Below, piece by piece: positions 12,403 through 28,251 of a stretch of 38,469 nt of DNA (the stretch's first letter is position 1; each line of letters starts with the position of its first letter). The position numbers were made by a program, and so were the translations under genes. The notes beneath the pieces are model-generated. The model searched no databases. It was not told the origin of the DNA and saw only the letters and a list, made by a program, of their open reading frames with translations. Source of the stretch: Bacteroidales bacterium (lineage in GTDB: Bacteria > Bacteroidota > Bacteroidia > Bacteroidales > UBA12170); contig JAFGAK010000328.1 of NCBI GenBank assembly GCA_016933745.1, forward strand, positions 1-38,469. Reading direction: 5' to 3'.

Positions 12403-12753
12403 TTACTTCAATAAAACGTCGTTGATGGCTTGAATTAAAGTGTCTTTTGGTAAAGCACCTTGAGCCATTTGAGGCTGACCATCTTTTGGGCAGAATAACA
12501 AAGAAGGAATACTGCGAATTCCAAATGCTCCTGCTAATTCTTGTTGATCTTCTGTATCAATTTTATAGATATTGATTTTTCCTTCGTATTCTTTAGATAG
12601 CTCTTCTAAAATTGGAGCTACCATTTTACAAGGCTGACACCAATCAGCGTAAAAATCGATTAAACATGGAAGCTCACCTTCGAATTTCCAATCTTTGTTT
12701 GCTTCGTAATTAAAAACTTTTGCTAAAAATGTTTCTTTTGTTAAATGTTCCAT
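12403..12753 (-). CDS. Thioredoxin (cytosolic, CQPC active site)
   Basis: LIDFYADWCQPCKMVAPILEELSKEY, FGIRSIPSLLF; no signal peptide. Confidence 0.92.
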   Translation of the reverse strand: MEHLTKETFLAKVFNYEANKDWKFEGELPCLIDFYADWCQPCKMVAPILEELSKEYEGKINIYKIDTEDQQELAGAFGIRSIPSLLFCPKDGQPQMAQGALPKDTLIQAINDVLLK

Positions 12754-12793: not shown

Positions 12794-13303
12794 TTATTCT
12801 ACTGGTTTGTTACCGAGAACGAATTCTTCGATAATTTTTTTGTACTGTTCAGCCTGCATCGCGCCAGCTTGCATGGCTGGTTTTCCTGATTTAGGAATAA
12901 ACATGACAGATGGAATTGAGCGAATGCCAAAAACGGCACTTAATTCGCGGTTGGCATCTGTATCAACTTTATAGATGACCACTTTACCCTGATACTCTTT
13001 TGCAAGATCTTCCATAATTGGAGCAACCCGCTTGCATGGTCCACACCAATCAGCATAAAAATCAATCACTGCAGGCAATTCGCCATTATATACCCAAGCA
13101 TCAGGATTTTGGTTATAATCCCAAACCAAATCGCGAAAGCTAGTTTCGTTCAAGTAAATAACGGCGGCTTCGCTCTTTGCAGAAGTTTCCGTTTTCGCTT
13201 GATTTTTTTCTCCGTTAGATTTTTCAGCAGCATTGCTATTGCAAGCAGAAAAGCTTAAGTTTACTAGCAAGGCAAATATCAGAATTCCAGTCTTTTTCAT
13301 CAT
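12794..13303 (-). CDS. Thioredoxin-domain lipoprotein (CGPC active site)
   Basis: Signal peptide with lipobox (ILIFALLVNLSFSAC) then thioredoxin fold VIDFYADWCGPCKRVAPIMEDLAKEY, FGIRSIPSVMF. Confidence 0.88.
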   Translation of the reverse strand: MMKKTGILIFALLVNLSFSACNSNAAEKSNGEKNQAKTETSAKSEAAVIYLNETSFRDLVWDYNQNPDAWVYNGELPAVIDFYADWCGPCKRVAPIMEDLAKEYQGKVVIYKVDTDANRELSAVFGIRSIPSVMFIPKSGKPAMQAGAMQAEQYKKIIEEFVLGNKPVE

Positions 13304-13475
13304 AAAGGCTATTTTTTGTTTAAATAAAGCGTGCAAAAATACAAATCTTTTTTAAATCGCTTTAATATCACTCGATTTGTCAATATTTATGCCAAAAGTA
13401 TTTTATCTTTGCTTACGACACATTGGCAGAACCAAAATTGTCATATTTTTAACTTTTGTCCACTTTGTCAAGAAA

Positions 13476-13916
13476 ATGAAGAAAATATTTAATACACTCG
13501 ATCAAAAAGAATTTGAGAAGCGTTTTTCAAGCGATGAGCAATGCTTGAAGTTTTTAGTAGATGAAAAATGGAAAAACGGCTTTATTTGTCGTAAATGCGG
13601 TCATACCAATTATTGCGAGGGTGCTGCGCCTTATTCAAGAAGATGCACCAAATGCAAGCATCAAGAATCGGCAACTGCTCATACTATTTTTCATCGTTGC
13701 AAGATTCCGATTCATGAGGCATTCATGATTTCGTTTTTAGTTTGTAGTTTGCCCGAAGTTTCGAGTCATGAAATTTCCCGAAAATTAAATATCCGGCAAA
13801 TGACTTGCTGGAACTTTAAAAAGAAAATAAGTAAATGTATCGACGAACGCGGCGATTTGAGTATACTTCAAAAAGAAGAGCTGAAAAAAGAAATCAAATC
13901 AAATCCTGCCGATTAA
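13476..13916 (+). CDS. Stand-alone IS1595-type transposase zinc-ribbon domain protein (no catalytic domain)
   Basis: EQCLKFLVDEKWKNGFICRKCGHTNYC...RRCTKCKHQESATAHTIFHRCKIPIHEAF matches the transposase zinc-ribbon family; ORF ends 28 nt before menA. ATG at 13476 preferred over the 13377 start. Confidence 0.75.
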   Translation: MKKIFNTLDQKEFEKRFSSDEQCLKFLVDEKWKNGFICRKCGHTNYCEGAAPYSRRCTKCKHQESATAHTIFHRCKIPIHEAFMISFLVCSLPEVSSHEISRKLNIRQMTCWNFKKKISKCIDERGDLSILQKEELKKEIKSNPAD

Positions 13917-26116: not shown

Positions 26117-26190
26117 GGTCTAGTAGCTCAGTTGGATAGAGCAGCAGCCTTCTAAGCTGCGGGTCGTGGGTTCGAATCCCGCCTAGATCA
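26117..26190 (+). tRNA. tRNA-Arg (anticodon TCT)
   Basis: GGTCTAG/CTAGATC acceptor stem, D-arm TAGCTCAGTTGGATAGAGCA, anticodon arm GCAGC-CTTCTAA-GCTGC, T-arm GTGGGTTCGAATCCCGC; CCA not encoded. Confidence 0.95.
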
Positions 26191-26202
26191 CTTTGGTTTA
26201 TT

Positions 26203-27584: not shown

Positions 27585-27785
27585 TTAATCATCCTCATCT
27601 AAAACAAATATATCATTTACATTTTTCTCAAATAATCTGGCAATTTTTAGCGCAAGAATTGTAGAAAGATTGTATTTTCCTTGCTCTACGGCGTTGATAG
27701 TTTGACGACTCACACCCACTAATTCGGCCAATTCTGCTTGGGTTATATTTTTGATGGCTCGTTCTACTTTCAGGCTATTTTTCAT
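27585..27785 (-). CDS. XRE-family helix-turn-helix regulator (66 aa)
   Basis: ITQAELAELVGVSRQTINAVEQGKYNLSTILALKIARLFEKNVNDIF. Confidence 0.92.
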   Translation of the reverse strand: MKNSLKVERAIKNITQAELAELVGVSRQTINAVEQGKYNLSTILALKIARLFEKNVNDIFVLDEDD

Positions 27786-28251
27786 CCTTCACTCCTTTCT
27801 TCAATTTGTATAAGGACCAGTTAAAATGAATCATGAAGAAAATTAGAATAGTAAACATGTTGATAATCATCACTGTAAAGAAAGCCATGTTATAAATAAA
27901 CATCAAAGCAAATATAAGTACCGCATAATTTAGATAAGTGGCTCTGACCAAAGACTACAATCGAATTCGAGTAATGAACTCATCTTCTTTCTTTTCCTTA
28001 GCAAAGACAATAAACGAAGCACTAACGATAATCAGAATACCAATAATTTCATTCAGTAAATTATTTTCAGTAATCGAAACAAAAGTAAGATCCTCTAGTA
28101 TTTCATCATTAAAAAAAGCGATTACCTTGCAATCCAAAAAGGCAGGTTCTAAATCAAAAATTAAATAGAGTATTCCAAAAATAAAGGAGGGAATAAAAAG
28201 GATCCAACCTATTTTCTTGAACGAATGAGGTAATAAATAATTTGTATTCAT
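27775..28251 (-). pseudogene. Small membrane protein interrupted by in-frame TAG at 27955-27957 (possible pseudogene or sequencing error)
   Basis: N-part MNTNYLLPHSFKKIGWILFIPS...DEFITRIRL, TAG, then 59 further open codons in the same frame (SLVRATYLNYAVLIFALMFIYNMAFFTVMIINMFTILIFFMIHFNWSLYKLKKGVKDEK) ending at a stop that overlaps the XRE start by 11 nt. Confidence 0.75.

Follow-up and report, generated by a model that had tools for sequence, protein, structure and literature searches.

A premature amber codon in the membrane-protein gene of a conserved Bacteroidota membrane protein/XRE regulator pair

We examined an in-frame TAG codon in a 38,469-nt contig of a Bacteroidales bacterium (JAFGAK010000328.1 of assembly GCA_016933745.1; this whole stretch is called the window below). 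The best explanation, to which we assign a probability of roughly 0.64, is an isolated, evolutionarily recent nonsense mutation in the membrane-protein gene of a two-gene unit conserved in Bacteroidota; a strain polymorphism is an alternative form of the same isolated change, and the two together are the most likely account. This reading fits the published finding that in-frame stops in bacteria are widespread and mostly short-lived (PMC7918605). The TAG is known from one assembled genome, and its base call comes from the assembly alone.

On the minus strand, positions 28251-27775 form a single 158-codon frame whose sole interruption is a TAG at codon 99; the translation reads MNTNYLLP...ITRIRL-stop-SLVRATY...KGVKDEK-stop. 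Ninety-eight codons (28251-27958, residues 1-98) are followed by the premature TAG (27957-27955), then by 59 open codons (27954-27778, residues 100-158) and by the ancestral terminal stop, also a TAG (27777-27775), which overlaps the start of the adjoining XRE gene. This downstream gene (27785-27585, minus strand) is intact, encodes a 66-aa regulator matching HTH_3 (E=6e-13), and shares 11 nt with the membrane protein frame, an overlap that is conserved. The frame, the position of the TAG, the 59 open codons and the overlap given in the preliminary description were all reproduced exactly by translation. An open frame of at least 58 codons has a chance probability of ~0.013 at 34.7% GC (from composition alone), and the length of the open stretch past the TAG is only suggestive of one gene. 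The single-gene reading is settled by homologues of full length, whose alignments to the frame pass through the TAG and span residues 1-158. The genome's own assembly contains one copy of the membrane protein gene, with one internal stop, a TAG.

The homologue set consisted of 17 loci from genome contigs plus further loci from genus- and order-level searches. Identity to the window protein was 61-70% within the genus (L019-L024) and ~30-50% beyond it, and the alignments cross the TAG. At codon 99, the six same-genus relatives in which the gene is present all carry GAA (Glu), and ~30 more distant Bacteroidota homologues carry GAA/GAG, TCN, AAC, TAT, CAA and other codons; among all these aligned loci, none has a stop at this position. 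Since the relatives show a sense codon at the site and a frame open throughout, the uninterrupted frame is, on this comparison, the ancestral state. We looked for homologues that end at RIRL, just before the TAG, and saw none; they run full-length past it. The possibility of two unrelated ORFs was thereby ruled out. The idea of one membrane protein of ~158 aa, interrupted by an amber codon and overlapping the XRE gene, is thus borne out, the homologues being uninterrupted with the overlap kept. One further locus (L039, a weak 25% match with one TAG and one TAA inside) gave no convincing homologue on its frames and was left out.

The TAG lies within KEKxEDEFIxxIRLxSL, the most conserved motif of the membrane protein, in which E89, D90, E91, I93, R97, S100 and L101 are invariant in a 15-sequence alignment. 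Apart from the TAG, the window copy can be aligned over the whole ~158-aa frame and carries this motif, and most loci retain the 11-nt overlap with a short XRE gene (~66 aa, typically MKN-KVERA...). The conserved motif, frame and overlap therefore define a two-gene module, represented in the window by an interrupted copy. The pair is widespread in Bacteroidota (loci L002-L034), with the 11-nt overlap conserved. Pfam and NCBIfam searches returned no significant family for the membrane protein (one homologue matched DUF6442 at E=0.027, which is not significant), and literature searches for the membrane protein/XRE pair returned nothing specific. Judged from the gene arrangement only, the pair probably acts as a regulator linked to the membrane, with the XRE protein modulated by its membrane-protein partner. 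This unnamed, conserved regulator-membrane protein module merits family definition.

Four membrane helices, two before the TAG and two after it, are suggested by hydropathy and by a structural model of low confidence. The AlphaFold2 model, built with 12 sequences, had a mean pLDDT of 62.8, which suggests four helices and is too low for a fold search; the small protein probably has four helices. Two of them are predicted in the N-terminal part (at ~13-36 and ~63-87), together with most of the motif, and two more, conserved in homologues, in the C-terminal part. The preliminary description had suggested that truncation could remove the transmembrane segments; this holds for two of the four predicted helices, while the other two remain.

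We next consider whether TAG acts as a stop in this organism, whose metagenome-derived Bacteroidota assembly consists of 368 contigs and is 76% complete. Reassignment of TAG to an amino acid was suggested by the absence from this assembly of prfA (release factor 1), for which the only match was RF2 by translation. The gene is present in 10 of 10 genus relatives, where it adjoins pyrF. In the present assembly, pyrF breaks off at the very end of contig C23 (30767-30925), and the gene that in relatives flanks prfA on the other side is truncated at the very start of contig C311 (3-1154; loci L181/L182 cover these C23/C311 ends). The missing prfA is explained by the truncation of both neighbor genes at contig ends, and it appears to fall in an assembly gap between C23 and C311. 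Stop usage was sampled over roughly a quarter of this genome (~0.56 Mb) and a quarter of a relative's (0.67 Mb); TAG terminates 11 of 85 genes (~13%) in the former and 13 of 89 in the latter. No other in-frame stop was found within plausible real genes in ~43,000 aligned codons of the sampled DNA, the remaining internal stops sitting in short ORFs that by appearance resemble shadow frames. A pattern of the code 15 type, in which TAG seldom ends genes and often occurs within them, was not seen in this sample. A tRNA with a CTA anticodon (amber suppressor) was absent among the ~20 tRNA genes recovered from the 76% complete assembly. We concluded that TAG is an ordinary stop in this organism. Genome-wide recoding was rejected on the stop usage, the absence of further in-frame TAGs from plausible real genes in the sample, and the contig-gap explanation for prfA, and we regard its probability as negligible.

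Selection on the branch leading to the window gene was estimated with a branch codon model fitted to eight sequences, the N and C parts being treated separately. On this branch omega came to 0.027 in the N part and to 0.007 in the C part (59 codons past the TAG); with omega fixed at 1, the fit worsened by 6.6 log units for the former and by 3.5 for the latter. The segment past the TAG has been under purifying selection for most of the branch. Because synonymous change is saturated, omega shows only constraint over most of the branch, and the test does not distinguish readthrough of the TAG from its recent origin. The TAG is either young or functionally bypassed. Relaxed selection after the TAG, by which an established pseudogene would be recognized, was not seen; omega there is well below 1, as expected if the mutation is recent, and the term pseudogene is therefore not yet earned.

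Programmed or tolerated amber readthrough would yield some full-length protein at lowered expression, perhaps tuning the XRE regulator. The purifying selection on the C-terminal part is consistent with it, and bacterial genes with in-frame stops often have dN/dS below 1, many of them being interpreted as read through (Belinky et al., PMC7918605). Selection before the mutation accounts for the same pattern, however; no relative has the stop, so that there is no conserved readthrough site, and the tRNA genes recovered include no suppressor. We consider readthrough unlikely. Termination followed by reinitiation offers another form of bypass: a TTG-started ORF of 58 aa (27951-27775) begins two codons past the TAG, and two two-helix chains could reassemble, keeping the coupling to the XRE gene. 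Such a split would fall inside the most conserved motif (E89 D90 E91 R97 S100 L101), and no relative is split at that point; we hold this to be even less probable than readthrough. Both are possible explanations that lack positive support. It is similarly improbable that the species maintains the amber codon as a means of keeping the full-length protein low, through readthrough or reinitiation, and of thereby altering expression of the coupled XRE gene.

The main rival to a recent nonsense mutation is a TAG produced by an error of base calling, assembly or strain mixing, the real gene being intact, which we regard as a minority possibility, well behind the mutation and ahead of any bypass of the stop. 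The fragmented assembly points in this direction, and the rest of the gene looks intact, including the selection on its C-terminal part. Against it, the absence of any further in-frame stop in plausible real genes of the sampled DNA indicates that such errors are uncommon in this assembly, and two wrong bases would be needed from the genus codon GAA unless the species has GAG. The same codon also weighs against the mutation, as an ancestral GAA in the species would require two substitutions to reach TAG. The preliminary description was correct in placing TAG a single substitution from GAG; the codon of every same-genus relative, however, is GAA, which differs from TAG at two bases. Among the causes it listed, nonsense mutation is now favored, sequencing error is less probable, and readthrough has gained no positive support.

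If the recent nonsense mutation is real, the product would be 98 residues long, terminating within the conserved motif and lacking helices 3 and 4, and the truncated membrane protein would probably be inactive. The XRE gene would probably lose its translational coupling because ribosomes stop ~170 nt upstream of its start, and it may be expressed at a lower level or by independent initiation.

Nonsense-interrupted bacterial genes described previously resemble the window gene in having one in-frame stop, a conserved frame and low dN/dS; that survey relied on stops shared by at least two genomes, whereas the window TAG is found in one genome only (Belinky et al., 2021; PMC7918605). Relative to the uncharacterized Bacteroidota membrane-protein/XRE pair, the window copy shares the length, the motif, the 11-nt overlap and the ~66-aa XRE protein of the MKN-KVERA type, and differs in carrying the premature TAG. 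Other small XRE-membrane protein pairs, of the DUF2975, DUF2178 and DUF6442 types, consist of a small multi-helix membrane protein adjoining a short XRE regulator. The window pair has the same layout and no significant sequence match to them. At present the interruption has little importance outside annotation, where gene callers will give a shortened product of 98 aa and may overlook the C-terminal part.

Other features were noted elsewhere in the window. Its only tRNA gene is a tRNA-Arg (TCT) at 26117-26191 on the plus strand. The ORF at 13377-13916 (plus strand) starts with a zinc ribbon like those of IS1595-type transposases and is short; from its translation, it may be a remnant or a stand-alone domain. 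On the minus strand, two thioredoxin-like genes lie next to each other at 12403-12753 and 12794-13336, and the N-terminus of the second product resembles that of a lipoprotein; as read from the translations, the two look like a tandem duplication.
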